Below, piece after piece: positions 1 to 17,810 of a stretch of 64,000 nucleotides of DNA (positions are counted from its first letter, which is position 1; each line of letters starts with the position of its first letter). The position numbers and the translations under genes are program-made. Where the stretch lies: positions 62,001 to 126,000 of the forward strand of contig JAUQWM010000005.1 of NCBI GenBank assembly GCA_030835125.1, given 5' to 3'. The stretch is from Gemmatimonadaceae bacterium. GTDB lineage: Bacteria; Gemmatimonadota; Gemmatimonadetes; Gemmatimonadales; Gemmatimonadaceae. The notes beneath the pieces are model-generated. The model was not told where the DNA came from. It saw only the letters and a program-made list of their open reading frames with translations, and did no database searches.

Positions 1-101
1 GGAAGTCCCAGCCAGGCGCCTACCGCGCCAACCACCACGCCAACCACGATCCCCACGGCTATGCCGCCGAGGACCACGCGCTGCAGGTTGCTGAGGGCCA
101 T
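1..101 (-). CDS. N-terminus of a membrane or secreted protein, cut by the window edge
   Basis: An ATG at 101 on the minus strand is preceded at a normal distance by GGAG. The visible 33 residues begin MALSNLQRVVLGGIAVG and continue as a Gly/Val/Ile-rich hydrophobic stretch with no charge, typical of an N-terminal membrane anchor or signal segment. The rest lies outside the window, so no family can be named. The gene points away from the propeller gene at 248-1579, with about 147 bp between its start and that gene's stop. The reading rests on the ribosome site and hydrophobicity only. Confidence 0.45.
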   Translation of the reverse strand, partial: MALSNLQRVVLGGIAVGIVVGVVVGAVGAWLGL

Positions 102-247
102 GCGGACTCCGGCTTCGAATGCCGGAGTATGGAGTTCAGGTCAACCGGTTGCCACCCCTGCTATCGCACCGGACGCGCGCGACCGCAAAGCGGGCGCATC
201 AGGCCGGAGCAGTGGCACCGTGGTGCCGCTACCCCGGCGGCCCGCAC

Positions 248-1579
248 TCACCGCAACCTGGCTCGCTCGATCCGCGCATTTCCCTCGGCGTCACGCACCG
301 CCAGGAAGACGTCACCGTTCTGCCCGAAGCCGACCAGTACCCGCCCCTCCGGCAACTGCACGCGATCGATGACCTGCCCCTGCTTGTTGATGACGAAATA
401 GATGGAACCCGAATTCCCCACCGGGCTGGTCGTGCGCACCCAGAGGTTTCCGGCGAGGTCCCCGCGCGAGGATCCGCTCGTGAAGGGCGGCCGATAGTCG
501 GGCAACTGGTCCGCCGAGACCATGTTGATCGGCGGCAGCTCTATTCGTGTGGCGGCGCCCGGGGCTCCGCCGCCGCGCGCCGGTGGTCCGCCGCCACGCG
601 CGGCACCTTCGGCACCCATCCGGAAAATCATCTCCGGCGCCGCGCCGCCGCCGCCGGCGGGATTCACTGCGATCGGTCCGCCGCCCGCCAGGCGCGCCTG
701 CGCCATCTCCCGCTGCTTTTCCAGTTCCTGTCGCGCCGAATCGAGCAGGGCCGCCTTGCCGTCGTCGTCGAGCCGCTGCCATTCGTACGGCAGCTTGCCT
801 GACGAGGTGCGTGACCCGTCCGGGTTGATCCAGTCGATCGAGTAGTCCGCGCCGCGCACGAGCGCAATCGTGCCGTCGGAGAGGAGCGCCCAGTCATCGA
901 CCGTCGGGATCGGGTTGATCGTCGAGGTCATCGAGAACCCGCCACTGGCCGTCTGGGTGACGGTGATGTTCGGCCGGTTGATCTTGTAGAAGCCGGCCGT
1001 ATCGAGCGTGCGCGACGCGAGGTCGAACCGGACGATCGCCATGGAGTCGGGAAACTCCGGCATGACCGGGCCGCCGCCACTGCCGCGCGGGGCCGCCATG
1101 CGCAACGCCGGTGTGGCCCGGTACACGAGTTTCCCCCTGGCGTCGAATCCGGGGAACCCGTTAGGCCCGCCGATCAGGTTGTTCACATCCTGCGGCCGCG
1201 GAGCCGACATCACCCGGGTGATCGCGCCGGCCGGGTCGATGACCAGCATGGACATCGAGGCGGGGTCGACGAAGAGCGCCGAATCGCCCCGATACTGCAG
1301 CAACCCGCCGGCCCGGTTGCCGTACGCGTTCGCCGTGCTGCTGGTCGAGTCGGCGACGACGGTGACCTGGGAGAACGTCGAGTCGAGCAGCAGGACCCGT
1401 CGCTTGAGGATGTCGTTGACGAGCACCCTGCCACCCGGCAGGGCAATCGCCGTCGCGACGCCGCCCATGACCTCCGTCGAACGCGCCACCGTGGCCCCGA
1501 TGGGCCTCACCGGCGGCAACGACTGGCCGAAGACGGGCATCGCACCGACCACCAAAGCAAGAAGGATGTACCTACGCAT
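248..1579 (-). CDS. Secreted beta-propeller-like protein (6-bladed type), 443 aa
   Basis: The start chosen is the ATG at 1579, which follows AGAGGAA and opens a signal peptide (MRRYILLALVVGAMPVFGQ). The open frame extends upstream into the heptamer repeat, but that extension is low-complexity and not credible. The mature protein has spaced repeats of the kind LPGGRVLVNDILKRRVLLLD, GDSALFVDPASMSMLVID and LSDGTIALVRGADYSIDWI, the pattern of 6-bladed propeller (BF3164/NHL-like) proteins common in Bacteroidota and Gemmatimonadota. Residues about 290-385 form a low-complexity Gly/Ala/Pro linker. It lies 3' of the TonB-dependent receptor on the same strand, separated only by the repeat array, so the two may be co-transcribed. 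The ligand is unknown. Confidence 0.75.
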   Translation of the reverse strand: MRRYILLALVVGAMPVFGQSLPPVRPIGATVARSTEVMGGVATAIALPGGRVLVNDILKRRVLLLDSTFSQVTVVADSTSSTANAYGNRAGGLLQYRGDSALFVDPASMSMLVIDPAGAITRVMSAPRPQDVNNLIGGPNGFPGFDARGKLVYRATPALRMAAPRGSGGGPVMPEFPDSMAIVRFDLASRTLDTAGFYKINRPNITVTQTASGGFSMTSTINPIPTVDDWALLSDGTIALVRGADYSIDWINPDGSRTSSGKLPYEWQRLDDDGKAALLDSARQELEKQREMAQARLAGGGPIAVNPAGGGGAAPEMIFRMGAEGAARGGGPPARGGGAPGAATRIELPPINMVSADQLPDYRPPFTSGSSRGDLAGNLWVRTTSPVGNSGSIYFVINKQGQVIDRVQLPEGRVLVGFGQNGDVFLAVRDAEGNARIERARLR

Positions 1580-1600
1580 GGTTCCTCTGTCGTGACTCGT

Positions 1601-1705
1601 GAAATCTGCAATCCGCACTCTGCACTCTGCACTCTGCACTCTGCACTCTGCACTCTGCACTCTGCACTCTGCACTCTGCACTCTGCACTCTGCACTCTGC
1701 ACTTT
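1601..1705. repeat. Heptamer tandem repeat, unit GCACTCT
   Basis: Twelve perfect copies of GCACTCT run from 1615 to 1698, followed by GCACTTT (1699-1705) and preceded by variant units GCAATCC (1608-1614) and GAAATCT (1601-1607). The array directly abuts the stop codon of the TonB receptor gene and fills the gap before the propeller gene. A unit length of 7 is not a multiple of 3, so it is unlikely to be coding, although it keeps a frame open on each strand. Related arrays with other 7-bp units lie at 15041, 26466, 26632 and 29469-29550. Confidence 0.95.
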
Positions 1706-4700
1706 CTACCTCACAATCACCGTCGCCCCGCCTCCGCCCACCATCCCCGGCACGAACTCGCCGCCGCCCGGGAACCCGAACGGTGCGCTCGCGCCCTGCG
1801 TCCCCGACCGGATCATGGCCAGGTAGCGCGGATCGAGATAGCTCGCGATGAACGTCGGCAGCTTGCGCAGCTGGTCCTGCGTGAGGAGCTGCTTGATCAC
1901 CGGGGACAGCCGGAGCAGCAGGTCCACCGATGCCTTGCGGGCATTCACGTAGCGATCCTGCACGTTGCGCTTGTCGTACGTATCCGGCAGCGCCGCCCAT
2001 TCCTTCGCGACCGGCGCCCAGATCGAGTCGAGCCGGATGATGTACCGACGGTTCATCGTCGCCAGGCTGTCGGCCTGGACGCCGGTCAGCTTGAGCGTGT
2101 CCGCCTGCCGGAGGATGGTTGCCATCGGGTTCGGGATTCCGCCCGAGCCGTACATGGCCTTGATCATCGCCTCGGGCACCTTGTTGCCGCGGAGCGTGCG
2201 GCCGCGGTCGAGCTGCATCGACAGCGACTGCCATTCCCGCGACGGGCCGAGGTCCATGCGGATCATCGCCGTGACGCGCACGGGTGCGCGGACCGCCGAC
2301 AGCGCCGGCGACGTAGCCCCGAAGCGCTGGTTGACCTCGTACGTGTACCGCTGCGACCCCGGGTTGAAGCCCCGGACGTAGAGCAGCGCCTGCTCGGGCG
2401 TCCGGACCTGGCCCCACCCGCGCAGGTCGTCCGAGCCGTTGAACATCAGGTCGGCGGCGCCCAGCGGGTTGGCGATCTGCAGCGAGATCGTCGTCCGCTG
2501 CGGCATGCGGACCTTCACCGGGTTGAACGAGATCGACAGCACGGCCGACTGCGTCCAGGGGCCGGTGCAGCTCGAGCGCGCCGCCAGTTGCCCCAGCTGC
2601 TTCATGAGGCAGTCCTTCGCGCCGCCGGTCGACGACCCGATGAGCTGCTGCATCTGCGACGCCAGCGACGCATCGGCCGTGCTGGACGGATCGAAGATGA
2701 ACGCGCGGTCGTTCGAGTAGCCGTCGCCGTTCACGTCGCCCACGATGGTCGGGGTGTACGGGACGCCGGACCGGAACGATCCGCTCCAGTTGATCCGCAT
2801 CACGTCGAAGAGGTTGTAGCCCAGGTTGTACGAGACCTGGTGCCGCGAATTGAATGCCGCCCGTCCCGACTCGATGTCCAGCGGGTTCCCGGTCGTCGAG
2901 GTGAAGCCGCGGAACTGGTCCTTCACGTCCGACACCACGTAGGAGAGCCCCCACGAGAAGGCGGTGCTGAAGGACAGCGGCGACAGCCGGATGCTCAGCT
3001 GCCTGCTCTCGCTCCGCAGGTCGGAGCGCTGCTGCGTGACGCGCGAGAACAGGTCCGACTTCCGGCCCGCGCCGGACGCGATGGATCCAGTGGCCGGCAC
3101 GATGCTGGTCGGCTGGACGAAGACGGGGCGGCCATCCTCGTCAGGCAGGGAGAACCGGGCGGTCGGGTCGAAGTTGAGGTCGATCGTGCTCGCCTGGTTC
3201 ATGTTGCGCGAATACGTCGCCTCGATGTTGGTGGTGAACCGGTTGCCGAGGATCGCGCCGCTCCAGCTCAGGTTCGACCGCAGGCTCTTCTGCGACTGGT
3301 AGTCCGCGTCGAACAGCGTCACGTTGGGCGCGGAGTTGGCGAAGGGCGTGCCCAGCGAGCCGTCGGCGCACTGGGTCGGGGTCGCCGCCGGGTTCGAGAG
3401 GTACAGGTCCCAGTCCGGGATCGGGGTGGCGCTGCCGACGCAGGTCAGCTGCTGCACGCCGGACGCCAGCCCGGTGTTGTCGATGGCGCCGCCCAGCAGT
3501 TGCGTGCCGGGGGAGTTCTGGAAGATGCCGACGCCGCCGCGGACCACCGCCCGCGGGCCGCGCACCGCGCCATCGAACGCCGCCACCTGGGCCGCGGTCC
3601 CCATGGTCCACGAGAACCCGATGCGGGGGCTCAGGTACAGCCGGTTCGGCACCTCGTCGTTGCGGACGCCGAAGACCTGCTCGACCTGGGGGTTGGGGTT
3701 GGGCGCCGCGCCGAAGCGATTGCCGTCGAGGCGAAGGCCGTATTGCAGCTGAAAGTCGTTGTTGACGCGGTACGAATCGCCGAGCGACAGGCCGCCGACG
3801 ACCTGGCTCCCCTCGCGGGTCCGCGGCGACAGGGCGCGGGTGTACGACGCCGGCAGGTTCGCCGCCAGGTCCTCGAGTGAGTTGTAGGTGAAGGTCCCCA
3901 GCCGGTTGGTGGTCTGGTCCTGCGCGTAGCCGTCCCGGCGCAGCTCCGTCGTCAGCTTCCACCGGTGCTTGTTGTCCGTGCTGAACCAGGACAGCGCGTT
4001 GTTGAACGCGACGTTGAGCGTGCTCTGCGACGTGCTCACCAGGGGGTTCCCGCCAAAGCCGAGCGAGCGGACGCCCGAGGTCCCGTCGTCGAAGTCGGAG
4101 TTCACGCGGACCGAACCCGAGGGCAGCGTGATGTACGGCGACCCGGCGCTGTGGGTCGTGCTCACGCCGAGCGAGGTCTCGCTGAGGAAGTAGCCGTAGA
4201 AGTTCGTGTGCCGCGCCTGGACCGTGCCGTTCCAGCTCGTCCGGTCGCCGTTGCGCGCCGGGAGGTCGGTGACGGAACCGAACAGCGGGTCCTGGCGGTT
4301 CCAGCCGGCGTTCATGGTGAGGTTGAACGCTTGGCCGCTGGTGCTCGACGGCGGGGCGAAGTCGATCGACCCGAACAACATGCCGTTGTCCACCAGCCGA
4401 TCGTTGGGGATCCCGCCGAGGGTGGCCGGGATCTGGTGCTGGCCCAGGATCGACAGGAGGCGTGTCACCGAGTCCTGCGCGACCCCTGCCGCCTGCAACC
4501 CGGCGCTGCCGGTGTTGAGCAGGGTCTGGTAGTCGCGGGCATTCCGGCCCAGCTGGTAGGAGAAGTTGTAGAACGCCTGGTCGAACGTGACCGGGCCGGC
4601 GAACCCGCCGCCTAACGAAATGTTGGAGTACTGCTGCCCCAGGTCGCGCGCCGCCGGGTCGGTCCACTGCAGCGACGGCGAGTCGAGGTTCAGGCTGCCG

Positions 4701-5434
4701 CTCCGGACCTTGAAGTTCGTTCCCGATCGCGTCCGCACGTTCATCTGCCCGCCGGAAAACCCGCCCCGCGACACGTCGTACGGCGCCGTCACCAGCGACG
4801 TCGAGATCCCGGCGTCCCGCGGCAGGTTCGAGCCGCCGAAGTCGAGCCCGTTGAGCGTGGTGTTGTTCTGGTCCGACCCGAGGCCCAGCACCGAGTAGCC
4901 TGACGGGTCGCCATCGGCGCCCGGGATGAGCGTCACGCCGGGCAGCGACGCGGCCATTGCCGCCAGGTCGCCCTGCTGCTCGGCGCTCAGCGCCGACATG
5001 TTCACCGGTCGTTCCGTGCCGCCGACGTCCGGAATGGTGCTGTTGCGATTGACGCGCGCGCGCTCGCCCTGGACGACCACGCCCTCGAGATCCTGCGCCG
5101 CGAGGTTCATCTTCGCGTCAGCGACGAGGATGTCCTGGTCCGCCGTCCGCTTCACCTGGAAGCGGCGCTGGGCATACCCGATGCGGTTCATCGTGACGAT
5201 GTAGTCGCCATCGCCGCCCGGGAACGTGATCGTGAACCGGCCATCGTTGTTGGTTCTAGCGGTCCGGTTCACGCCGCCGGTCACCGAGGTCGCGGTGACC
5301 TGCACACCCTCGAGCGGGCGGTTGTCCGGACCGGTGATGCGGCCACGAATGACGTCGGTCTGCTGGGCCGCCGCCGGCTGCGCCAGGCAGAGCGCGACCA
5401 GGGCGAGGGAAAGACGAAAGAGGTTCCGGAGCAC
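1706..5434 (-). CDS. TonB-dependent outer-membrane receptor, Oar-like, 1242 aa
   Basis: The start is taken as GTG 5434, which has AGGA at correct spacing and opens a clean signal peptide (LRNLFRLSLALVALCLAQPAAA, then Q). A longer frame upstream adds 22 residues without signal character. Residues about 28-110 form a carboxypeptidase-regulatory-like domain (VIRGRITGPDNRPLEGVQVT). A plug domain follows (about 130-260, with SVLGLGSDQNNTTLNGLDFG), then a very long beta-barrel rich in aromatic and Asn/Ser strands. The last 120 residues are helical and Lys/Arg/Leu rich (LLRLSPVIKQLLTQDQLRKL), recalling Spy/CpxP-like segments, which is unusual after a barrel. The substrate is unknown; Oar-type receptors are linked to protein or peptide transport. 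A long, hairpin-rich leader of more than 250 nt precedes the gene. Confidence 0.9.
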   Translation of the reverse strand: MLRNLFRLSLALVALCLAQPAAAQQTDVIRGRITGPDNRPLEGVQVTATSVTGGVNRTARTNNDGRFTITFPGGDGDYIVTMNRIGYAQRRFQVKRTADQDILVADAKMNLAAQDLEGVVVQGERARVNRNSTIPDVGGTERPVNMSALSAEQQGDLAAMAASLPGVTLIPGADGDPSGYSVLGLGSDQNNTTLNGLDFGGSNLPRDAGISTSLVTAPYDVSRGGFSGGQMNVRTRSGTNFKVRSGSLNLDSPSLQWTDPAARDLGQQYSNISLGGGFAGPVTFDQAFYNFSYQLGRNARDYQTLLNTGSAGLQAAGVAQDSVTRLLSILGQHQIPATLGGIPNDRLVDNGMLFGSIDFAPPSSTSGQAFNLTMNAGWNRQDPLFGSVTDLPARNGDRTSWNGTVQARHTNFYGYFLSETSLGVSTTHSAGSPYITLPSGSVRVNSDFDDGTSGVRSLGFGGNPLVSTSQSTLNVAFNNALSWFSTDNKHRWKLTTELRRDGYAQDQTTNRLGTFTYNSLEDLAANLPASYTRALSPRTREGSQVVGGLSLGDSYRVNNDFQLQYGLRLDGNRFGAAPNPNPQVEQVFGVRNDEVPNRLYLSPRIGFSWTMGTAAQVAAFDGAVRGPRAVVRGGVGIFQNSPGTQLLGGAIDNTGLASGVQQLTCVGSATPIPDWDLYLSNPAATPTQCADGSLGTPFANSAPNVTLFDADYQSQKSLRSNLSWSGAILGNRFTTNIEATYSRNMNQASTIDLNFDPTARFSLPDEDGRPVFVQPTSIVPATGSIASGAGRKSDLFSRVTQQRSDLRSESRQLSIRLSPLSFSTAFSWGLSYVVSDVKDQFRGFTSTTGNPLDIESGRAAFNSRHQVSYNLGYNLFDVMRINWSGSFRSGVPYTPTIVGDVNGDGYSNDRAFIFDPSSTADASLASQMQQLIGSSTGGAKDCLMKQLGQLAARSSCTGPWTQSAVLSISFNPVKVRMPQRTTISLQIANPLGAADLMFNGSDDLRGWGQVRTPEQALLYVRGFNPGSQRYTYEVNQRFGATSPALSAVRAPVRVTAMIRMDLGPSREWQSLSMQLDRGRTLRGNKVPEAMIKAMYGSGGIPNPMATILRQADTLKLTGVQADSLATMNRRYIIRLDSIWAPVAKEWAALPDTYDKRNVQDRYVNARKASVDLLLRLSPVIKQLLTQDQLRKLPTFIASYLDPRYLAMIRSGTQGASAPFGFPGGGEFVPGMVGGGGATVIVR

Positions 5435-6172
5435 GAGGTGTCCTGTGATGAATCGACGGTGGTGGGCGTGGCCTGCGGAATATGACGGGTGTCGTGCCAC
5501 CTCGGCTTAGACCCGCCGGGTGACCGCTCCGTTTCCATCGCCCACGACGGGATCCCTGCCTTCCGGGATTCGCGAAGGCCAGCTTGTGGGCTCCCGGCCG
5601 GCCGCCTCCGACCGGACCTCCTCGGTTGCCCTGCGGCGGCTCGGATCGATTCAGGGCGGCGTCCGAGGCGGGAATCAGACCCAACAGGGCGTCAAGGACG
5701 CGAGCAAAGCACGGGTCGGACGCGGCACCAGGTGTCCGCCGGCGTGGTGTGCTATGGATGGAGGAAGGGTGCGACCTGCGTGAATGCGATGGCAGGATGC
5801 GACGGCGCCGATGACCAGGCCCGCTTCGCCCCCCGACCTCGCCTGGCACGAATCGGCCGCCGCGAGTTCGGTGCCGACACGCCTGTTCTTCGGCTCACCC
5901 TGAATGGCGCTTCCCGGAGCCAGGGCGTGCCTTCTTCAGGCTGCGGTCGCTTCCTGAGGGGACGGGCGCGGTCGTCAGCAGTGGTCGTTTCTGGCAACGG
6001 AGCGTCGTGGAAGGCGCTGACGACGGGATTGCCCTCATGGAGATTCCGCCAGACTATGCAGACCGACCGAAACGGTTTCGGGAGCGCCAAGTGATTCAAG
6101 GAAGGCGGAGCCGCTGGGAAGCGGTAGACATTGGGCGGCATATCCCACGAAACAATTACCGGTCCAATTGGC
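5435..6172. other. Gene-poor stretch left of the cassette array
   Basis: No convincing gene is seen. The open frames here lack signal, motif or ribosome site, and none resembles a tyrosine recombinase (integron integrase). The half next to the TonB receptor is GC-rich with several short inverted repeats and may be its untranslated leader. The right end joins the first cassette core site at 6173; I found no matching R'' box upstream, so this side could be an attI site or a decayed attC. Confidence 0.5.
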
Positions 6173-6179
6173 GTTAGGC
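6173..6179 (+). other. Left core site of cassette 1 (GTTAGGC)
   Basis: GTTAGGC matches the integron core GTTRRRY, where recombination cuts after the G. It lies 27 nt before the first cassette gene and is the exact complement of the R'' box (GCCTAAC, 7403-7409) of the attC that follows that gene, as expected when the core arrived with its own cassette. It marks the left border of the array. Confidence 0.65.
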
Positions 6180-6205
6180 GGCAAAGCAAGTTCCGAGAAC
6201 TCCTC

Positions 6206-7390
6206 ATGAAGCTTCAGCTTCAGGTCACTGCGCTCCTCCTAAGCTTCGTCAGCGGCCGCGCCGATAGCCAGGTGCGCGACAGTGCTGGCGTGCAGATCGT
6301 TGCGGCGAGTCGAGCAGCGACCCAACAGCGGGCTACGCTCACGCTGGGCGCCGCGCCAAGCTTGGTGCTCGGCGGGTCGTCGGCCGATTTAATGCAGGAG
6401 TTTGCTGACGTTCCGGCCGCTGTGGTTCTGAGCGATAGCACAGTCGTCATTGTGAACCGTGCGACCCACGAGCTGCGCTTCTTTTCGCCTCGCGCCGAAT
6501 TCCGCAGGGCGGCTGGCCGTCGTGGAGAAGGACCCGGCGAGTTTACGACCATTGCGGCTTTCGCCGTGCTCGCCGCGGAGTCGTTGGCGGTTCAGGACTG
6601 GAGAACATCACGCGTTTCCGTATTCACTCGCGGTGGGGTCCTCGGCCGCTCGTTCACGCTCGGCCCGCCTCCTCAGCGCCCGCGCGCGGCTCTGGTCGGA
6701 CCGTTCTCCGATGGCACGTTGCTGGGAGCAGGATCCGACTATTTGACAGATACAGAGCCGCCCCCTGGTTTGTTCACACTCACGCAGACCGCATTCCGAT
6801 TCACGGCATCGGGCGAGCCACTCGCTCCGGTGGGCAACCTTCTCGAGCGTGAGTTCCTTTTCGTGGCCGGGCCGAGCGGGGTTTCTCGTTATGTGATGCC
6901 CTACGGATTCCTCGGCTGCGTACGCGTTTATGGTGACTCATTTCTTATGGGAGATGGACGCAGTTTCGAAATTCGGGAGTACAGCCAGAGTGGAGCACTC
7001 AAGCGACTCATTCGCGCCGATCCAGAACCGAGGCGAATTACTAGCGCTGACAAGGCTGCAGAGAAGGAACGGATCCTTGCGTTCTATGGGCAAAAGACAG
7101 CGTCGCCGGGTTTTGAGCGCTTCTGGTCCGCAGTACCTTGGCGCGCGACCATGCCTGCGTTCAAACGATTTGAACTCTCCGAGGATGGTTGGCTCTGGGT
7201 CGAACTCTATCGGGGAGTCAATGAAGGACCCCGCTGGCTGCTCTTTGACACCGACCGACGTGCGCGCGGATTCATCGATATGCCAGGTCAGTTCGAGATT
7301 CGGCAGATTCGCCGCAACGGTGTACTCGGGGTGGCCCGAACGGCTGATGATGAGGAAAGCATTGCCTTCTATCCTTTTGCCCGCAGGTAA
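6206..7390 (+). CDS. Cassette 1 gene: secreted 6-bladed beta-propeller-like protein, 394 aa
   Basis: The start chosen is ATG 6206, which opens a signal peptide (MKLQLQVTALLLSFVSGRADS); the frame extends upstream to 6131 but that part crosses the cassette border. The mature protein carries a motif typical of BF3164-like 6-bladed propellers (RRAAGRRGEGPGEFTTI, about residues 95-112) plus spaced propeller strands (AVQDWRTSRVSVFTRGG, GDSFLMGDGRSFEIREYS). The stop at 7390 is followed 12 nt later by an attC site, and a core site lies just upstream, so this is a roughly 1.34-kb gene cassette in the standard orientation. Codon use is clearly more A/T-rich than in neighbours (for example a TTA Leu codon at 6388), consistent with transfer. 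Function unknown; probably a surface or periplasmic binding protein. Confidence 0.8.
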   Translation: MKLQLQVTALLLSFVSGRADSQVRDSAGVQIVAASRAATQQRATLTLGAAPSLVLGGSSADLMQEFADVPAAVVLSDSTVVIVNRATHELRFFSPRAEFRRAAGRRGEGPGEFTTIAAFAVLAAESLAVQDWRTSRVSVFTRGGVLGRSFTLGPPPQRPRAALVGPFSDGTLLGAGSDYLTDTEPPPGLFTLTQTAFRFTASGEPLAPVGNLLEREFLFVAGPSGVSRYVMPYGFLGCVRVYGDSFLMGDGRSFEIREYSQSGALKRLIRADPEPRRITSADKAAEKERILAFYGQKTASPGFERFWSAVPWRATMPAFKRFELSEDGWLWVELYRGVNEGPRWLLFDTDRRARGFIDMPGQFEIRQIRRNGVLGVARTADDEESIAFYPFARR

Positions 7391-7402
7391 TGAGACGTTT
7401 CC

Positions 7403-7519
7403 GCCTAACAGGCGTTGCAGCAGACGGCGGAGCTATGGAACGCGCCGAGGCACTCGCTTCGCTCGTGTCCACGGCGCGATCTTATTGGATTCGCCGCGCC
7501 TGAACGCTAGCCGTTAGGC
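7403..7519 (+). other. attC recombination site 1 (117 bp)
   Basis: R'' box GCCTAAC (7403-7409) and R' box GTTAGGC (7513-7519) are perfect complements at the ends of an imperfect inverted repeat. Inside, the left arm GCGTTGCAG pairs with the right arm (reverse complement GCGTTCAG) with one extra G on the left, the extrahelical base that marks the active strand in known attC sites. The 117-bp length is within the attC range. It sits 12 nt after the stop codon of the preceding gene. Confidence 0.8.
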
Positions 7520-7537
7520 AACAGCCCAGCCCTCCGA

Positions 7538-7942
7538 GTGCCACGACAACGCACGGTATTCCTGCTTCTCAGCGTAGTGGTGGTAGGTGGGCTCGCCGCG
7601 CGCCCACTTCGTCGTGTCATCCTGCCGATGCCGCTGGACCACTGCACGTCACGCCGCTTCGATAGCCGCGCCTGGGGTGCCTCGCCCCCGGTCCGATCAC
7701 AGTCGACGCCGCGCCTGTGCATGATTGACGATCTACTGCGCCAGCATGCGTTGGTTGGCCTGACCAGAGCGCAGGCGGTTGAGTTGCTTGGCAAGCCGCC
7801 TGAGACGTCGTACTTTCGGGAGTATGGCTTAGTGTACTTCCTCGGCGCCGAGGGTGGTGTGGCTGGTGTCGACTCGCGGTGGCTGCTGCTGCGGGTGGAC
7901 AGCACTGGGCACGTCACCGAGCGGCGCCTTGCCACCGATTGA
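7538..7942 (+). CDS. Cassette 2 gene: small membrane-anchored protein with BamE/SmpA-like segment, 134 aa
   Basis: GTG start at 7538, 18 nt after the attC core, with only a weak ribosome site. Residues 5-24 are a hydrophobic signal or anchor (RTVFLLLSVVVVGGLAARPL). Residues about 60-110 read IDDLLRQHALVGLTRAQAV and ELLGKPPETSYFREYGLVYF, resembling the helix-turn-strand core of BamE/SmpA/OmlA proteins (G-x-T-xx-x-V-xx-LLGxP), though the similarity is short. The gene fills a 526-bp cassette between two attC sites. Role unknown; an envelope location is inferred from the anchor. Confidence 0.65.
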   Translation: MPRQRTVFLLLSVVVVGGLAARPLRRVILPMPLDHCTSRRFDSRAWGASPPVRSQSTPRLCMIDDLLRQHALVGLTRAQAVELLGKPPETSYFREYGLVYFLGAEGGVAGVDSRWLLLRVDSTGHVTERRLATD

Positions 7943-7953
7943 GTGTAGCTGTT

Positions 7954-8045
7954 GCCTAACAACGTCTGCTGCTCAGCCGGAGCTAGTCGACTCGCTGTCG
8001 CTCGCTTTGGTTGAACCGGCTGCAGTAGAAACTTGTCCGTTAGCT
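7954..8045 (+). other. attC recombination site 2 (92 bp)
   Basis: R'' box GCCTAAC (7954-7960) lies 12 nt after the cassette 2 stop. The inner arms CTGCTGCTCAGCCGG and CCGGCTGCAGTAG are near-complementary with unpaired bases on the left arm. The right core is GTTAGCT (8039-8045), which does not pair with GCCTAAC but pairs exactly with the R'' box AGCTAAC of the next site (8679). That is what cassette insertion predicts, because the right six bases of an integrated attC belong to the next cassette. Confidence 0.75.
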
Positions 8046-8066
8046 GGCACTCAAAGGAGCGTCGCG

Positions 8067-8663
8067 ATGTCGAAGGTGATCGCAATCATGTCCATGTCGC
8101 TCGACGGCTATGTCGCCGACCGCAACGGTGGCGTGGCCGAGGTGATGGGCTGGTACATGACATCTGGGAGCACAGAAGTCCAGACTGGTGGGTCGGACCC
8201 CATGACGCTCAGGATGTCGGAAGCGAGCGCCAGGCACTTCCGCGATCTCACGTCAGAACTCGGTTCCGTAATCACCGGCCGGCGAACGTTTGAGGACGCA
8301 GACGGTTGGGGCGGAAATCACGCGTGGGGGCCTGCATTCGTGTTGACCCACCTCGTTCCCGCGGGATGGCCGAGACCCAACTCGACGGTGCATTTCGTGA
8401 CCGACGGCATCGATAGCGCCGTGAAGCGAGCCAAAGCCGCTGCAGCCGGGAAATCCGTAGGGGTCCACGGCGCTGACACCATCCAGCAATTGTTGAACGC
8501 TGGCCTGCTCGACGAAATCCATGTCGATATCGCGGCGCTCCTTCTTGGCTCCGGAGTTCGACTCTTTGACCACCTCGCTGGCTTGCCCGCCGTTCTGGGC
8601 AATCCGACGGTCATCGCTGGCGTCGGCGTAACCCACCTACGCTACCCGGTACGCAAGGCGTAG
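8067..8663 (+). CDS. Cassette 3 gene: dihydrofolate-reductase-family (RibD C-terminal) protein, 198 aa
   Basis: ATG 8067 follows AAAGGAGC at good spacing. The protein opens MSKVIAIMSMSLDGYVAD, the usual N-terminus of RibD-C/YwjB/YyaP proteins, and contains GSVITGRRTFEDADGW (about 70-85) and a C-terminal Rossmann-like segment with GVHGADTIQQLLNAG and DEIHVDIAALLLGSGVRLF. The family is NAD(P)H-dependent reductase-like; most members, including this one, have no proven substrate. It is not a dfrA or dfrB trimethoprim-resistance enzyme by sequence. It is the last gene of the cassette array. A distant paralog in ordinary chromosome lies at 57963-58529. Confidence 0.88.
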   Translation: MSKVIAIMSMSLDGYVADRNGGVAEVMGWYMTSGSTEVQTGGSDPMTLRMSEASARHFRDLTSELGSVITGRRTFEDADGWGGNHAWGPAFVLTHLVPAGWPRPNSTVHFVTDGIDSAVKRAKAAAAGKSVGVHGADTIQQLLNAGLLDEIHVDIAALLLGSGVRLFDHLAGLPAVLGNPTVIAGVGVTHLRYPVRKA

Positions 8664-8678
8664 TCACATTGTCGTGCC

Positions 8679-8730
8679 AGCTAACAACAGCGTGCAGCGG
8701 AGGGCTCTCAGCCGCCGCTGAGCTGGGCGG
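8679..8730 (+). other. attC site 3, incomplete (no right core)
   Basis: R'' box AGCTAAC (8679-8685) pairs with the left border core of cassette 3 (GTTAGCT, 8039). It is followed by CAGCGTGCAGCGG and then by the near-complementary CCGCTGAGCTG, giving the L''/L' arms with unpaired bases on the left arm. Where GTTRRRY is expected the sequence reads GGCGGCGAACTC, so the R' box is absent. This is the right end of the recognisable array, probably after deletion or decay. Confidence 0.6.
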
Positions 8731-8816
8731 CGAACTCTGGGGCCGATATGCACCAGGTCGGTCAATCGCTCAGTTCGCCGCTCAATCGGGTGAAGGGCCT
8801 CAGATGTCAGGCGCCA

Positions 8817-10754
8817 TCAGCGCGGCACGACGCGCAGTCGCGCCGTCCCGATTGGCGGCTGATTGGGAGGACCGACATGGAGCAGGAGTTCACCCGGTCG
8901 GTCCGGCACCAGCTCGAAATCGGCCGTCTCACCACTGGCGAGGTTTGTCTGGGCAGGCTGTGGCCGAATCCGTGAAGCAGGCAAAGGGAACCCGTCCTTC
9001 GCCAGCGGCCGCCACGTTACAGGGCCGGAGTCATTGACGATGCGGACCAGCGGGTTCGGGAAAAACACCGCGATGTCCGCGAGGCGAATGCGGTACCGAT
9101 CTCCCACGCGGAGTTCAATCGGCGCAGGATCGAGGGAGCCGTTGATGAACGCCCGGCGCGGCACGCCGTCCGAAATCAGGAACAGCAGGTCGTGCGCTGG
9201 ATCCCGGCGTTCTCCGGGCTCGAGCACGATGAGACCGCCGACGAGACCGCCGAATTGCTGTCGTATCTCGTCAAAGTGCGTGTGATACATGAAGGTGCCC
9301 GCGCGCTTCGGCGTCAGGCGCACCTCGAAGCGACTGCCGGATCGGATTGCTGGTGATGTGCGACCAGTCACTCCAGGTGTGCCGCTCCAACCAACCGCTC
9401 CGTCGTAATAGCTGTCGATTTCGATGCCATGCCAGTGCACCGCTGACGGCTCGCCGGAGCGGTTCACGACCTCGATGGTGGTTGGTTCCCCACGGGTGAG
9501 GATGAGAACCGGGCCTGGATATTCGACCGAGTCCCTGCGAGGCTCGGCACCGCGCGCCAGCACGTAACCAAACCGTCGACTGGAGTCGGCGGTCGATGAA
9601 TCAGACTGGATGTAGAGCTGCAGCCGCTTCGTTGGACGCCAGGGCGTCTCCGATGGTGCGGGCCCGGTCACTGTGACGGCCGTGATCAATCCGCTCATGC
9701 CATTCAACGTGTGTCGATCCGGATCATCGTGATGCGCATGCGAGGGAAACTGCGTGCTGTCCTGGTGCGCGATCGGCGGCATCTTCGCCATGTGGGTCGT
9801 CAGGTGGCAATGAAAGATCCACCCGCCCGGGCGATCGGGCGACCAGACGATGGACCGGGTGGATCCAGGCGGCAGCGTCTCGGTCACGGCCATCTCTCGG
9901 TCTTCGGGGGCCAGCACCGAATCCCGGTCCGCCTGCGTGGCTCTGCGGGCAGCGGCACCTGGCGCGTCGGCAATCCCGCGTGAGTCGATGCGGAAGTAGA
10001 AGCCGTGCAGGTGCATGGGATGCGGTGTGATCGCGGCGTTGAGGATGCGCCAGCGGATACTGTCGCCTAACGCGTACGTCAGACGCTCCGAGTACGGCCA
10101 GGCCTTGCCGTTGATGGCGCTGAACTCACGGGACGGCACACCGTGTCGGTCGCGCGCCCCACCCGGCGGCGCGTCGACCAGCGTCGTGAGCACCATGACC
10201 CGATCCTCCGGAATCGGGCCGGCCGAATCGACGATGAACGCGCCGACAAACTGCGAAGCGATGGTCCCGAGCTGCGCCTGCCGTAACGGCGCCGTACCGA
10301 GCGTCACCCGTTGCGACGTGAAGCCGCGATAGAAGTACGTACCGGCCGTGCCGGCCTGGAATCGCGCTTCTCCGCTCGCTCCCGGCAGAATGCGCAGGGA
10401 GTCCGGAACGCCATCGCCCCGTGGGCCGAGGCCCGTCACGATCAGTGTGTCCGGAAGAGGGTTGCGAACCGTCGCCACGATCGGCGTTCCGGCGCGCACA
10501 CGGACGAGCGGACCTGGGATCGTGGGTGCCTTGCCCTGTTCCGCAAAAGCCAGAACGCGAAAGCCCGGGTCCTTCTCGCCGTTGATGCGCCAGGTCGCCT
10601 GCATTGCCACCAGCCGCAGCACAAGCGTGTCGCCGTTTCTAACTCCGGCGGCCGTCCGATTGTCGTTGGCCGTAGCATCCGGATCGCCCTGGTTCGAGTG
10701 ACCCAGCGTGGCCACCAGGCAGGCAACAAAAAGGACCCACACCGAACACCGCAT
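8817..10754 (-). CDS. Multicopper oxidase with permuted copper motifs, 645 aa
   Basis: ATG 10754 has GGAG upstream and opens a signal-like segment (CSVWVLFVACLVATLG). All ligands of a multicopper oxidase are present but in reversed order: the C-terminal-type motifs come first (HPMHLHG, residues 245-251; HCHLTTHMAKM, 315-325), then the N-terminal-type motifs (HWHG, 440-443; HTH, 491-493). Eight His can form the trinuclear centre, with H245, C316, H321 and perhaps M325 for type 1 copper. Cupredoxin-like domains at about 45-175 and 520-645 lack ligands (VTGLGPRGDGVPD and YFYRGF stand where HWHG and YHSH would be). The layout suits a fusion of two two-domain oxidases retaining one centre at the inner junction. 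Likely periplasmic; substrate unknown. Its 3' end adjoins the cassette array. Confidence 0.85.
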   Translation of the reverse strand: MRCSVWVLFVACLVATLGHSNQGDPDATANDNRTAAGVRNGDTLVLRLVAMQATWRINGEKDPGFRVLAFAEQGKAPTIPGPLVRVRAGTPIVATVRNPLPDTLIVTGLGPRGDGVPDSLRILPGASGEARFQAGTAGTYFYRGFTSQRVTLGTAPLRQAQLGTIASQFVGAFIVDSAGPIPEDRVMVLTTLVDAPPGGARDRHGVPSREFSAINGKAWPYSERLTYALGDSIRWRILNAAITPHPMHLHGFYFRIDSRGIADAPGAAARRATQADRDSVLAPEDREMAVTETLPPGSTRSIVWSPDRPGGWIFHCHLTTHMAKMPPIAHQDSTQFPSHAHHDDPDRHTLNGMSGLITAVTVTGPAPSETPWRPTKRLQLYIQSDSSTADSSRRFGYVLARGAEPRRDSVEYPGPVLILTRGEPTTIEVVNRSGEPSAVHWHGIEIDSYYDGAVGWSGTPGVTGRTSPAIRSGSRFEVRLTPKRAGTFMYHTHFDEIRQQFGGLVGGLIVLEPGERRDPAHDLLFLISDGVPRRAFINGSLDPAPIELRVGDRYRIRLADIAVFFPNPLVRIVNDSGPVTWRPLAKDGFPLPASRIRPQPAQTNLASGETADFELVPDRPGELLLHVGPPNQPPIGTARLRVVPR

Positions 10755-10878
10755 GTGGTACTCCGGGCTGGAAGTTCACCATGATACTACATCTTCCGGT
10801 TGTGTTCCTCCACCAGGATCGGATCGCGTTTGTCGGTCTACCAGAGGTGGGGCGAAACCCTGGTCATCGACTCCTTCT

Positions 10879-11376
10879 TCACGCTGCAGCGGTGAACAAG
10901 TCGTCGAGGCGGGCGTAGCTGTACTCCATGCCGTCGGTCATTCCCGTGGAGACGGCGCCATCACGCGCTTCCTTCGACGCGAACGTCATATTGCAGACAA
11001 GCGTCGTAACGCCGTCCTGCTCACTGAGTTCAAGTGACACGATGCAGGGATCGCCAACTGGCATGGCGAAGCCCATATCGCCCGGGTCGAAGTATTGTTC
11101 GTGGATAATCCTCGACGGGGCGTTGGCTTCGGTGAACGTGCCGAAGAAGCCGAACTGCTTGCCGTCTTCGCGGCTTCTCCACTGCCACTTGTACTTGCCG
11201 CCGACGCGGACATCCATGTCGCACACCGGCATGTCCCAGCCATCATAGCCCTGCCATTTCCGCACGAGTTCGGGCTTGGTATGCGCATCCCACACCAATT
11301 GGCGGGGCGCATTGAACGTACGTGTGACGCGGACTTCACGATCACTCGGCAAGGCAACTTCTGCGGGTTTGGGCAT
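10879..11376 (-). CDS. SRPBCC/AHSA1-domain protein, 165 aa
   Basis: ATG 11376 follows GGGAGAAG. The protein is a single START-like AHSA1 domain: VRVTRTFNAPRQLVWDAHTKPELVRKW in two parts (about 15-42), VCDMDVRVGGKYKWQWRS, GTFTEANAPSRIIHEQYFD, and the C-terminal helix ARDGAVSTGMTDGMEYSYAR with the G-M-x-G-M-E pattern of the family. The fold binds hydrophobic ligands; the ligand here is not predictable. It lies 80 bp downstream of an ArsR-type regulator on the same strand, a very common pairing, and probably shares its promoter at 11840-11868. Confidence 0.9.
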   Translation of the reverse strand: MPKPAEVALPSDREVRVTRTFNAPRQLVWDAHTKPELVRKWQGYDGWDMPVCDMDVRVGGKYKWQWRSREDGKQFGFFGTFTEANAPSRIIHEQYFDPGDMGFAMPVGDPCIVSLELSEQDGVTTLVCNMTFASKEARDGAVSTGMTDGMEYSYARLDDLFTAAA

Positions 11377-11455
11377 TGTCTTCTCCCTGGTGCTCCATCG
11401 TGATGGCGCGCCGCCCTGAGGACGAACGCGCGAGCAGCGCGCCGACAGGTCCGCG

Positions 11456-11812
11456 CTATCTTCCTGTGCGCTTGCGCCTGGACGGTTTGGCCTGGAGTTC
11501 TTCGAGCAACGCATCGAGGCGCTGGTAGTTCTGTTCGAAGATCTCGCGGTAACGTTCGATCCAGTCCACGGCCTCCTCCAATCGCTTCGGTTCCAGCTTG
11601 CGTGGACGCCGCTGCGCATCGACGTCCATCGAGATGAGGCCGGCGCGCTCGAGCACTTTCAGGTGTTTGGAAATGGCTGGCTGGCTCATCGTGAACGGCT
11701 CGGCGAGTTCCGTCACGGTGGCCTCCCCCGTCGCCAGCCGCGCCAGGATGGCGCGGCGGGTGGGGTCGGCCAGAGCGGCGAAGGTCAGGTTGAGGCGTTC
11801 CGAGGATTGCAT
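11456..11812 (-). CDS. ArsR-family winged-helix repressor, 118 aa
   Basis: The start is taken as ATG 11812; the frame runs upstream to 11848 but that would overlap the -10 element. LTFAALADPTRRAILARLA and the recognition region MSQPAISKHLKVLERAGLI are the hallmark of the ArsR subgroup that accompanies AHSA1 proteins (SdpR/YgaV-like). No CxC or other metal-site Cys is present, so it is unlikely to be an arsenic sensor. The C-terminus is Lys/Arg rich. It probably autoregulates the two-gene operon with 10879-11376. Confidence 0.93.
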   Translation of the reverse strand: MQSSERLNLTFAALADPTRRAILARLATGEATVTELAEPFTMSQPAISKHLKVLERAGLISMDVDAQRRPRKLEPKRLEEAVDWIERYREIFEQNYQRLDALLEELQAKPSRRKRTGR

Positions 11813-11839
11813 AACCGTCCAGTTCCATAACGTTGTAGT

Positions 11840-11868
11840 TATATACAAGCCCAGGACTGGCCAGTCAA
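11840..11868 (-). promoter_or_regulatory. Sigma-70-type promoter of the arsR-AHSA1 operon
   Basis: On the minus strand TTGACT (11868-11863) and TATATA (11845-11840) are separated by exactly 17 bp, a near-consensus promoter that stands out in this GC-rich DNA. Predicted transcription start is about 11833, some 20 nt before the ATG at 11812. The segment ACTACAACGTTAT next to the -10 box could hold the repressor operator. Confidence 0.75.
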
Positions 11869-11953
11869 GGCTTCTGGGTCATGTCTCAAAGGCCGCAGAA
11901 AGCTGCGAATTCCCGCGCCGAGACCTGTTCGACCCGCCCTGCGCCAACCAGAA

Positions 11954-12556
11954 CTACCTCGGCTTCGCGCTGGTCAGGAGCCCGATCCGCCGTCCCGCCG
12001 CGGAGTCGCGGATCAAGGCCTGGAGCCGGCGCAGGCGCGTTTCTTCCTTCTTCGCGCTCACGACCCACCAGCTCGCGGTCCGGCGATAACCTGGCGGCTG
12101 CGCCTGGAAGAACGCCCAGGCCTTCCGGTTCTTCTTCAGCATCGCCTCGTACCGGGGGTCGAGGCCGCGATGGTCAGCCTGCTCGAACGAATAGACGCCG
12201 GTAGCCGTGCGTTTCTCGAAGGCAGTCAGGCCCGCCGGGTGCATACGGCCTTCGGCTTGTAGCGCCTGCACGCGCGCGATGTTGATCAGGCTCCAGTTGC
12301 TCCTCGGGCGCCGCGGCGTGAACCGCTGCCGATAGGAATCGCCATCAATGGACTTCCGGATGCCGTCGATCCACCCGAAGCAGAGTGCCTCGTCGACCGA
12401 TTCCTGCCAGGTCGGGCTCGACTTGCGGGTCGCCTTCTTCCAGTAGCCAACCCAGAGTTCCGTCGCACGGTCATGGTTCCGCTCGAGCCAGGTCCGGAAC
12501 TCGGCCGCTGTGCGGAAGAACTTCGGCGGTGGCTCGCGACGCGACCCGGCCGGCAT
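11954..12556 (-). CDS. YdeI/OmpD-associated family protein, 200 aa
   Basis: The full YdeI-family pattern is visible: FFRTAAEFRTWLERNHDRA near the start, WVGYWKKATRKSSPTW, DEALCFGWIDGIRKSIDGD (about 55-75), FTPRRPRSNWSLINIARV, then a C-terminal part with the ALKKN-like FQAQPPGYRRTASWWVVSAK. Family members are linked to stress or antimicrobial-peptide resistance but the biochemical role is unsettled. The start codon lies 3 nt after the stop of the zinc-ribbon gene, whose stop (in TAGGAGATG) also supplies the ribosome site, so the two are translationally coupled. Confidence 0.92.
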   Translation of the reverse strand: MPAGSRREPPPKFFRTAAEFRTWLERNHDRATELWVGYWKKATRKSSPTWQESVDEALCFGWIDGIRKSIDGDSYRQRFTPRRPRSNWSLINIARVQALQAEGRMHPAGLTAFEKRTATGVYSFEQADHRGLDPRYEAMLKKNRKAWAFFQAQPPGYRRTASWWVVSAKKEETRLRRLQALIRDSAAGRRIGLLTSAKPR

Positions 12557-12559
12557 CTC

Positions 12560-12781
12560 CTACTCGATCGGGTTCTGCGCGTACGACTCCAGGTATCCGC
12601 ACTTGTCGCAGCGATACGTGGTCACTTCGTACTTGTCCTTGCCCCTGGTGCGAATGCCGAGCCAGAAACTGCGCTCCGGCTCGCCTTCCACCCACTTCGG
12701 GACGTTGCTGGAGTTGTGGTCACCGCGATCGATGACGAATCCCTCGGACATGCTGGCGCGGCACCTGGGGCATTCTTTCAT
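12560..12781 (-). CDS. Zinc-ribbon small protein, 73 aa
   Basis: ATG 12781 gives MKECPRCRASMSEGFVIDRG; the second half of the ribbon is YRCDKCGYLESYAQ. Two CxxC knuckles about 48 residues apart suit a single zinc ribbon of the type in DUF6487-like proteins. The frame extends upstream to 12838 without added features. It is the first gene of a pair with the YdeI-family gene (12556). Function unknown. Confidence 0.82.
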   Translation of the reverse strand: MKECPRCRASMSEGFVIDRGDHNSSNVPKWVEGEPERSFWLGIRTRGKDKYEVTTYRCDKCGYLESYAQNPIE

Positions 12782-12856
12782 GGGGCGATGGCGAAAGGGT
12801 GGATGACGGGAGACGTGTCTCGCGCCACGTCCGATCATCGTGGCACAGTCTACCTG

Positions 12857-13636
12857 TCACGCAGGCGTTGTGCGAGCCATCCATTCGATGCTCGAGCGAA
12901 AGAGCGAGAGTGACACCGCATGCGGTCCGTCGAATTCACGGTAGTCCACGTCATACCCGCCGAGCCGCAGTTCCGGAACGATCTGCCGGCTGGTGGCCTC
13001 GATCGGCAGCACCACGTCCTGGGTGCCATGCGTGATGAAGAACTCGGGGTGCCCGTGCAGACCTGCCGCCTGGATGAAGCCCGGGGAATACGCGGCGACG
13101 CGAGGGAACACGTCGCCGTTGGTGAGTCCCAGCGACAGCGAGTAGGAAGCGCCGTCCGAGAACCCGGAGCAGTACACGCGGTTCCGGTCCACGTGGACGG
13201 TCCGGTACGCCTCCTGGATCGCGGCATTGATGAAGCTCACGTCCGGACCGAACTGGCCGAGGATGAGGTCCCAGGTTCGCCCCCTGGCCTCCGGCGCCAG
13301 CAGGATCATCCCGAACTCGTCCGCCGCCGGTTGGAAGCTGTCCATGTAGTTGCGGGCGGGCGTTACCGCGCCACGAAAGAAGACAGCCATGGGCCAGGCG
13401 CGCGACGGGTCGTATCCGGTCGGGACGACGAGCCAGCAATCCCGAATGTCCCCTCCCACGACGATGCTGTGGATGCCGGCGGCGACCTGTGTCGTGGGAG
13501 GAATGCCCGGGACCGCGGTAATCCGCGCGTTCGGCGCGGCCGGAGCCTCGGTGAGGCCAAGGCGGCAACCGGCCGCTGCCGCCACACCGGCGCCGACCGC
13601 TGAGCAGAAGCGGCGTCGCGTGAGGCGCGGCGTCAT
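12857..13636 (-). CDS. Tat-exported alpha/beta-hydrolase (esterase/PHB-depolymerase-like), 259 aa
   Basis: Starting at ATG 13636 gives MTPRLTRRRFCSAVGAGVAA, a twin-arginine signal ending in AAGC, possibly a lipobox; an upstream ATG at 13675 adds 13 charged residues. The catalytic triad is visible: nucleophile in YCSGFSDGASYS (GxSxG), Asp in ITHGTQDVVLP and His in FDGPHAVSLS. The fold and the tri-peptide RAWPMAVFFRGA resemble secreted phospholipase/carboxylesterase and feruloyl-esterase proteins. Substrate unknown. It ends 75 bp before the zinc-ribbon gene on the same strand. Confidence 0.85.
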   Translation of the reverse strand: MTPRLTRRRFCSAVGAGVAAAAGCRLGLTEAPAAPNARITAVPGIPPTTQVAAGIHSIVVGGDIRDCWLVVPTGYDPSRAWPMAVFFRGAVTPARNYMDSFQPAADEFGMILLAPEARGRTWDLILGQFGPDVSFINAAIQEAYRTVHVDRNRVYCSGFSDGASYSLSLGLTNGDVFPRVAAYSPGFIQAAGLHGHPEFFITHGTQDVVLPIEATSRQIVPELRLGGYDVDYREFDGPHAVSLSLFRSSIEWMARTTPA

Positions 13637-13801
13637 CGACCTGGAGTCGTCCTCATCCCCATGGCGTGGCGGCATGCTGCTTCTCGTCCCCTGGCTTCGA
13701 TCCTTCCATCCATCGTAGGGAGCGGGCCCGCTCTGCGGCAGGTACCCGATGTCCAGCCGCGTCGTGCCCGTGGCAAGCCGTCCCCGGGCGCCCTCTGCGG
13801 C

Positions 13802-15160
13802 TCAGGCCATGGAACGCCGGGCGATACTCCACCGCCCGCGGGTGAAATCAGGGAAATCCACGGAGCGACCCCGATTCGCGACCGAGCGCTCGGACAGGGG
13901 CCCCGGCGCGCTCCAGGCCGCCGCGTCGTAGACGTCCATGTCGGGCGCCAGTCCCTCGCGCATGCACTGCACCAGCCGCCAGGCCATGACGTAGTCCATG
14001 CCGCCGTGCCCGCCGCTCCGCGCCTTCTCGCCTAACGACCGCCAGAGCGGGTGCTCGTGTTCGGCCTTGAACTCGTCGATCGCCTTCCAGCGATGATCGG
14101 GCCGCGCACTGTCGAAGTAGATGCGGGGCGGGTAGTCCTCGAAGATCCCCTTCGTGCCCTGCACGCTGTTGATGCGGCTGTAGGGCCGGGGACTGGTGAC
14201 ATCGTGCTCGAGCAGGATGACGCGACCCTTCGCCGTGCGGATGAGCGACCGGTTGAGGTCCCCGGTGACGTACCGTTCCTTCCACTTCGGCGAGTCCTTC
14301 GGCTCGCGGGCCTCGCGCCACTCGGTCAGGCCGGCCTCCTCGGTGCTCATGGAGACCAGGTAGTCGAACCGGTCACCGCGATTCACGTCCATATAGAAGG
14401 CGACCGGCCCGAGCCCGTGGGTGGGATACAGGTTGGCGTTGCGCTTCGTGTGGTGGTCGCGCCGCCAGAGTCCCTCGTCACGGTTCTCGAAGAGGATCGC
14501 GCGCAGGTCGTGGTTGTACGCCGCGCCGCCGGCCTTGATCTCGCCGAACAGTCCCGCGCGCACCATCTGGAGGACCAGCAGCTCGTTGTACCCGTAGTTG
14601 CAGTTCTCCATCATGATGCAGTGCCGTCGCGTCCGTTCGGAGGTGTCGACGAGCCGCCAGCAATCGTCGAGCGTGTACGCGGCGGGGACTTCGGTGGCGG
14701 CATGCTTGCCGGCGTTCATCGCCGCCAGGCACACGGGCACGTGCCATTGCCAAGGCGTGGCGGTGTAGACGAGGTCGACGTCGTCCCGCCGGCAGAGCTC
14801 CTCGAACGCGCGCTCCCCGGAAGTGAAGACCGCGGGCTCATGGTCGTGCCCCGCACGCCGCATCATCTGGCGCGCCTGCTCGACCTTTTCGGGCACGATG
14901 TCGCAGAGCGCGGTGATGCGAACGTTGTCCACCCCGAGCCACTCGTTGAGCATGGAGCGACCCCGGAGCCCGGTCCCCACGATCGCGATCCGCACGGTGT
15001 CGTGGCGCGCGAACGGGACCCCGGCCATGGAATCGGCTGCGGGAATCGGGATTCGGGAATCGGGAATCGACGCGGCGTGTGCGTCGTCGATCCCGAGCTG
15101 CGTCAGTGCCGCACCAGCGCTCGCGGCGGCGGCGGACTTGAGGAGTTCGCGACGATCCAT
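13802..15160 (-). CDS. Gfo/Idh/MocA oxidoreductase, GH109-like, Tat signal, 452 aa
   Basis: ATG 15160 opens MDRRELLKSAAAASAGAALT, a Tat-type signal. The Rossmann motif VRIAIVGTGLRGRSML starts at about residue 58. GH109 (NAD-dependent alpha-N-acetylgalactosaminidase) features include TPWQWHVPVCLAAMNAGKHA, ATEVPAAYTLDDCWRLVDTSE, MENCNYGYNELLVLQMV, NLYPTHGLGPVAFYMDVNRGD and the late GGHGGMDYVM. The length matches that family. If active it would remove N-acetylgalactosamine from glycans by an oxidation-elimination route. A four-unit 7-bp repeat lies within its N-terminal coding region (see 15041-15068). Confidence 0.9.
   Translation of the reverse strand: MDRRELLKSAAAASAGAALTQLGIDDAHAASIPDSRIPIPAADSMAGVPFARHDTVRIAIVGTGLRGRSMLNEWLGVDNVRITALCDIVPEKVEQARQMMRRAGHDHEPAVFTSGERAFEELCRRDDVDLVYTATPWQWHVPVCLAAMNAGKHAATEVPAAYTLDDCWRLVDTSERTRRHCIMMENCNYGYNELLVLQMVRAGLFGEIKAGGAAYNHDLRAILFENRDEGLWRRDHHTKRNANLYPTHGLGPVAFYMDVNRGDRFDYLVSMSTEEAGLTEWREAREPKDSPKWKERYVTGDLNRSLIRTAKGRVILLEHDVTSPRPYSRINSVQGTKGIFEDYPPRIYFDSARPDHRWKAIDEFKAEHEHPLWRSLGEKARSGGHGGMDYVMAWRLVQCMREGLAPDMDVYDAAAWSAPGPLSERSVANRGRSVDFPDFTRGRWSIARRSMA
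15041..15068. repeat. Heptamer repeat GGGAATC inside a coding region
   Basis: Units GGGAATC, GGGATTC, GGGAATC, GGGAATC occupy 15041-15068. They sit in the linker between the Tat signal and the Rossmann domain of the GH109-like gene and encode the Ser/Ile/Pro/Asp-rich linker ASIPDSRIPIPA on the minus strand. The 7-bp period matches the intergenic arrays although the unit sequence differs. Confidence 0.85.
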
Positions 15161-15224
15161 GGGACGGGCGAGAGGGGAGGGAATGCTTGCCACGCACGTT
15201 AAGGCCTCCCCAGCCACGCGCCAG

Positions 15225-15316
15225 CACCCAGCCCCAGCTCCAGCCCCAAGCCCCAGCTCCAGCCCCCAGCTCGAGCACGCTGCTTGAGCAGCAGCCCGCA
15301 GCAATCAGCACGCAGC
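15225..15316 (-). repeat. CAG-rich interspersed element, copy A
   Basis: A CCCAGC/CCAGCT-type tract (15225-15272) is followed by CAG triplets and the 19-nt core GCAGCAATCAGCACGCAGC (15298-15316). The core, read on the minus strand as GCTGCGTGCTGATTGCTGC, recurs at 19179-19197 (one mismatch) and 22496-22515 (one inserted base). It lies directly downstream of the stop of the ADOP permease gene at 15323. Confidence 0.8.
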
Positions 15317-15322
15317 CTGAAG

Positions 15323-17761: not shown

Positions 17762-17810
17762 GCTCGTTGTCGTGAAGTGAATCCCGCCACGTCGCCCGTT
17801 GCGCTTTGCG

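Follow-up and report, generated by a model that had tools for sequence, protein, structure and literature searches.

An integrase-less integron cassette array with an attI-like head in an integron-bearing Gemmatimonadaceae genome

Positions 6173–8729 of the window (the whole 64,000-nt stretch analysed here, bases 62001–126000 of contig C26 in a draft genome of 4.48 Mb, 73 contigs and 99% completeness) very probably form a genuine integron cassette array without an integrase (CALIN) in an integron-bearing genome, a reading to which we assign a probability of about 0.93. The term CALIN is reportedly that of Cury et al. (IntegronFinder) for an attC cluster lacking an integron integrase. A three-gene array of this kind had been proposed in a first-pass annotation, and the proposal stood: two attC sites were recovered by a hold-out covariance model, the third was recognized by homology, and no intI lies nearby. 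All three cassettes consist of one ORF and one attC and run in the same direction, as laid out below.

6047–6179, + strand: attI-like site that heads the array (L-type box GTCCAAT 6162–6168, spacer TGGC, core GTTAGGC 6173–6179)
6173–6179, + strand: left core GTTAGGC (boxes read directly)
6174–7513, + strand: cassette 1, core GTTAGGC complementary to its own R'' box GCCTAAC
6206–7390, + strand: cassette 1 ORF, 394 aa, predicted beta-propeller-like and probably exported (Pfam DUF5128)
7403–7519, + strand: attC1, R'' GCCTAAC 7403–7409, R' GTTAGGC 7513–7519
7514–8039, + strand: cassette 2, core complementary to its own R''
7538–7942, + strand: cassette 2 ORF, 134 aa, hydrophobic N-terminus, sub-threshold Pfam BamE match
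7954–8045, + strand: attC2, R'' GCCTAAC 7954–7960, R' GTTAGCT 8039–8045
8040–8729, + strand: cassette 3, also present in genome G167, where both ends fall on the predicted bases
8067–8663, + strand: cassette 3 ORF, 198 aa, RibD_C (dihydrofolate-reductase-like fold; Pfam E 7e-13)
8679–8735, + strand: attC3, short, R'' AGCTAAC 8679–8685 intact, closing box GGCGAAC 8729–8735

The left core starts at 6173 and the first cassette at 6174. Direct reading of the boxes confirmed that in cassettes 1–3 each left core is exactly complementary to the R'' of the same cassette, and that the GTTAGCT core of cassette 3 pairs with its own AGCTAAC and not with the GCCTAAC of attC2, both as the first-pass annotation had it. 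Across the 14 cassettes counted (the three of the window and 11 of the resident integron), exact complementarity held in 11, compared to 2.5 in shuffles (0/20000). The distance from ORF to R'' had been given as 12–15 nt; this is accurate for cassettes 1 and 3 (12 and 15 nt), while in cassette 2 it is 11 nt. The G+C content of the array is 58–63% versus 67–70% in the left flank. No sigma-70-like promoter was seen in window positions 5500–8900, a pattern that says little for this phylum, and Rfam gave no match within the window.

Covariance models made here matched both attC1 and attC2, which answers the covariance check proposed in the first-pass annotation. With the R2 model, built from 10 attCs and excluding the window's own sites, a search of 181 kb gave 75.3 bits (E 3.6e-15) for attC1 and 44 bits (E 7.8e-8) for attC2; attC1 reached 100.5 bits with the R1 model, and was also recovered by a simple core-and-arm scan that found nothing comparable in shuffles. 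Folding of the bottom strand of 7403–7519, likewise proposed beforehand, gave −30.7 kcal/mol (z −2.9). Furthermore, an alignment of 12 attCs from the genome's own integron and relatives (two of them from the window) had 92% of hairpin cells paired, with changes on either side of the pairing in 10 pairs and 24 cells, both partners being altered, compared to 5.1 and 9.3 in shuffles (0/500). Two attC sites within array spacing, attC1 and attC2 by the hold-out model, thus supply the at least two that a CALIN has, and the window contains no intI, so that it does not hold the set of intI, attI and attC that makes a complete integron.

The last site is one of the points that speak against this reading, beside the lack of a clean empty site, the divergence of the attI-like head and the draft state of the assembly: attC3 lacks a proper R', and the covariance model returned no match to it in the window. 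It aligns to its G167 counterpart, an intact attC of 58 nt (L242:2113–2170) that is itself a 31.9-bit model match, and by this comparison attC3 is a short site whose closing R' half was lost, its right half being flank or decayed sequence. An alternative end of attC3 at GATATGC (8744–8750) was dropped, the G167 cassette setting the end at 8729; a genome search for the target family that this guess implied found none. The word GCCTAAC occurs 998 times in the whole genome, versus 505 for the reversed word, and few of the copies are attC boxes; a reading of these counts as hundreds of attCs was rejected, since in scans of ~350 kb almost none of the copies proved to be attCs.

Curated NCBI models gave no name to any of the three cassette proteins. 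The match of the cassette 1 protein to Pfam DUF5128 (a six-bladed beta-propeller) is borderline, at 23.1 bits against a cut-off of 22.9, and the protein has a weak relative in a second orphan array of the same genome (23% identity over 363 aa, E 7e-13). The cassette 2 protein is possibly BamE-like (sub-threshold Pfam match, E 0.15), with relatives at 39% identity in three other genomes among the 151 genomes of the order searched. Relatives of the cassette 3 protein were found in five other genomes of the same 151, three of them in another family (one at 91% identity, two at 82%), against 71–75% within its own family.

Comparison with these relatives is, at the level of sequence, the decisive test for the cassette reading. 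Cassette 3 and its counterpart in G167, a genome of another family, are 91% identical in amino acids and 90% in nucleotides; the DNA alignment starts at the core GTTAGCT, spans gene and attC, and stops at the predicted cassette end. Outside cassette 3 the two sequences are unrelated, and the G167 gene has an attC both before and after it. A further genome, G148, carries the cassette 3 gene with attCs of another sequence on both sides. Because its boundaries are identical inside a different attC array, which is direct evidence, cassette 3 is on this alignment a mobile integron cassette, and, judged in the same way, at least this cassette has moved between families.

The surrounding locus was compared in relatives, a flanking gene having its nearest relatives, within a collection of named genomes, in Gemmatimonadota MAGs. 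In the only same-genus genome sampled (G005), a TonB-receptor gene (83% protein identity to its counterpart beside the array) adjoins homologues of window 11954–12556 and 13802–15304. Between the shared flanking genes G005 has 1.6 kb of mostly tandem repeats and none of the three cassette genes; the difference covers everything between the shared genes, the array and the genes adjoining it both being missing. A search of G005, G003, G006 and G001 for a clean empty site found none; of these genomes, G005 alone keeps genes from both flanks. The G005 repeats, of roughly 118 bp, fill the intergenic region at about 10300–11700 of L236 (G005:C291). Elsewhere in the window, 14 copies of TCTGCAC occupy 1605–1703, where the reverse-strand ORF 248–1702 begins, possibly a variable stretch or a wrongly assigned start.

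A search for intI elsewhere in the genome, also proposed in the first-pass annotation, located a full-length IntI on contig C46 (24082–25011; 388 bits versus a cut-off of 265) and none near the array. C46 was the only contig on which the IntI profile passed its cut-off, and tblastn of this IntI against window 1–16000 gave nothing significant and no trace of an intI pseudogene. The distance from array to intI is known as lying on different contigs, C26 being 196 kb long and running unbroken past both ends of the array. On the same strand 3' of intI, C46 carries a core GTTATGC, an acetyltransferase ORF, an R'' GCATAAC and an attC truncated where the contig stops; since the last bases of C46 are the first bases of C63, the resident integron very likely continues, by this overlap, into C63, which holds ~20 attCs over some 21 kb. 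The window cassettes and this resident integron use one attC family, and the resident integron's first attC shares 87% identity with attC2.

Several further features of these arrays were observed. Cores far from intI (L042, C63 1–20000, at 5297–18813; L043 at 1629–9045; L197) are often GTCAGGC with R'' GCCTGAC, the positions changed relative to GTTAGGC/GCCTAAC being the second T of the core and its partner A, unlike random decay. The resident integron includes a HicA/HicB-like toxin-antitoxin cassette, named from its translation (L042 866–1286, C63). More small arrays or single attC sites lie on C26, C59, C29 and C25, among them the second orphan array, at C26:140.9–142.3 kb, in which a cassette and attC are headed by an attI copy with no intI. 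On the minus strand of C59:117001–133000 (L199), a gatB-like 3' end plus ~185 bp occurs in three copies (79–80% identical), each then followed by a core (11942, 9716 and 5581) and cassettes, which include BrnT/BrnA-like and HigB/HigA-like toxin-antitoxin pairs (names from translations). These three similar left ends were considered as kin of the window's head and set aside; they follow gatB-like 3'-end repeats, and the relation is not clear.

The head of the window array has the L-type box and core at the spacing typical of the family, adjoining the first cassette: GTCCAAT-TGGC-GTTAGGC, where relatives' attI sites follow GTCTAAT-N4-GTTRNRY. Anchored at the core, it matches the C46 sequence that separates intI from the first cassette at 52 of 126 positions (33 expected) and at 40 of 80 (20 expected), ranking 1 of 304 core-like sites for similarity to the C46 attI region. 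With the 18 bases by the core left out, the distal part still matches at 37 of 90 versus 23 expected, and 10 of 20000 random places were as good. Among 10542 GTT sites of the sampled genome, it ranked first in similarity to the two other attI copies; at 126 nt its lead over the next site was slight. One of those copies, at C26:140946–140996, was the second attI copy found by BLAST of the C46 attI against the genome (75% over 52 nt, E 0.09). We therefore consider the window head to be likely homologous to the resident attI, though diverged (about 41–50% over 80–126 bases).

The array may be described mechanistically as follows. Each cassette is an ORF plus an attC whose bottom strand, by the evidence of model, covariation and fold, forms the recombination hairpin; the cassettes were probably placed one by one through IntI-type recombination at G^TT into an attI-like site. 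Both attC1 and attC2 look intact, and excision in trans by the resident IntI could still occur.

An ordinary three-gene operon with chance repeats would account for a single strand and short spacers between genes. We regard it as having next to no chance of being correct: the hold-out attC model gives E values of 3.6e-15 and 7.8e-8, G005 is without all three genes, and cassette 3 stands alone in other attC arrays, in G167 with identical boundaries. The first-pass annotation had named as telling against itself a lack of covariance matches together with the same genes conserved as an operon in relatives; matches were found, and no conserved operon was.

How the array arose is a separate matter. 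The site may be a second integron platform that lost its integrase gene, or a platform copy that lacked it; the left end would then be a true, diverged attI, loaded with the cassettes while intI was still there. We hold this at even odds. This is supported by the attI-like head (L box, spacer and core, best of the 10542 sites), by similarity of the head that reaches back to the end of intI in C46, and by the clearer attI copy on the second orphan array of C26, also without intI; it requires several platforms in one genome, and the window bears no trace of an intI pseudogene. That the resident IntI acted in trans, inserting the cassettes at a secondary chromosomal site resembling attI, has a prospect somewhat below even: a full-length IntI is present, several small arrays are scattered through the genome, and the literature describes off-target insertion as one way in which CALINs arise (PMC8618304), whereas the attI similarity extends past the binding boxes. 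Between these two, loss of intI is slightly favoured. Separation of a piece of the main C46/C63 integron by genome rearrangement, another published route (PMC8618304), would fit the 87% identity of attC2 to the main array's first attC; it appears improbable, as a cut within an array would not yield an attI-like head and the flanks are other chromosomal genes. Finally, because attI-headed arrays without intI recur (the window, C26:140.9 kb and perhaps the gatB-linked C59 units), the attI platform itself could have been copied and scattered, and the one resident IntI could act in trans on several attI sites. We consider this unlikely; if true, it would mean one integrase with many loading sites.

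Like CALIN elements in general, the window array contains two or more attC sites, has all its cassettes on one strand and lacks a nearby intI, the gene being present elsewhere in the genome; it differs in its attI-like head and decayed third attC. It shares attC family, core types and attI-like head with the resident C46/C63 integron, which differs in possessing intI and about 20 attCs. In Treponema integrons, intI is transcribed towards attI and along the cassettes, like that of the C46 integron and its family relatives (PMC3607928); these belong to another phylum, the window array being without intI, and T. phagedenis kept attCs after intI loss (PMC3607928). The Xanthomonas CALINs outside the ilvD locus are likewise small arrays that lie apart from the intI locus of integron-bearing genomes, although the part of that source drawn on here does not mention an attI-like head (PMC12444791). 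The IntI nearest in the plasmid collection to that of C46 (56%) is from Gemmatirosa kalamazoonensis, in which, unlike the window array, a complete integron lies on a 1.1 Mb replicon (PMC9024848).

Arrays in this lineage had been called little described in the first-pass annotation, which is partly right and does not hold for Gemmatimonadota integrons as such: the phylum is among those already listed as bearing integrons (PMC8618304), and the IntegronFinder 2.0 paper mentions the integron of Gemmatirosa kalamazoonensis (PMC9024848). CALINs, their routes of origin and Gemmatimonadota integrons are all published (PMC8618304, PMC9024848, PMC12444791). New are the diverged attI-like head, the similar head on the second orphan array of C26, and the orientation of IntI along the cassette direction in the family; the attI-like heads and the cross-family cassette are the more interesting details.

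Across the family, 81 of 148 genomes, representing 30 of 35 genera, carry IntI, and attCs were found in 39 of 44; in those relatives that showed an attC close to intI, the attC follows the gene downstream with the same orientation. Gemmatimonads thus have a busy cassette economy, with IntI in more than half and attCs in roughly nine-tenths of the family's sampled genomes, scattered arrays without integrase and the exchange of a cassette between families. The attI-like heads make the origin of CALINs, by intI loss or by insertion in trans, testable within one genome.
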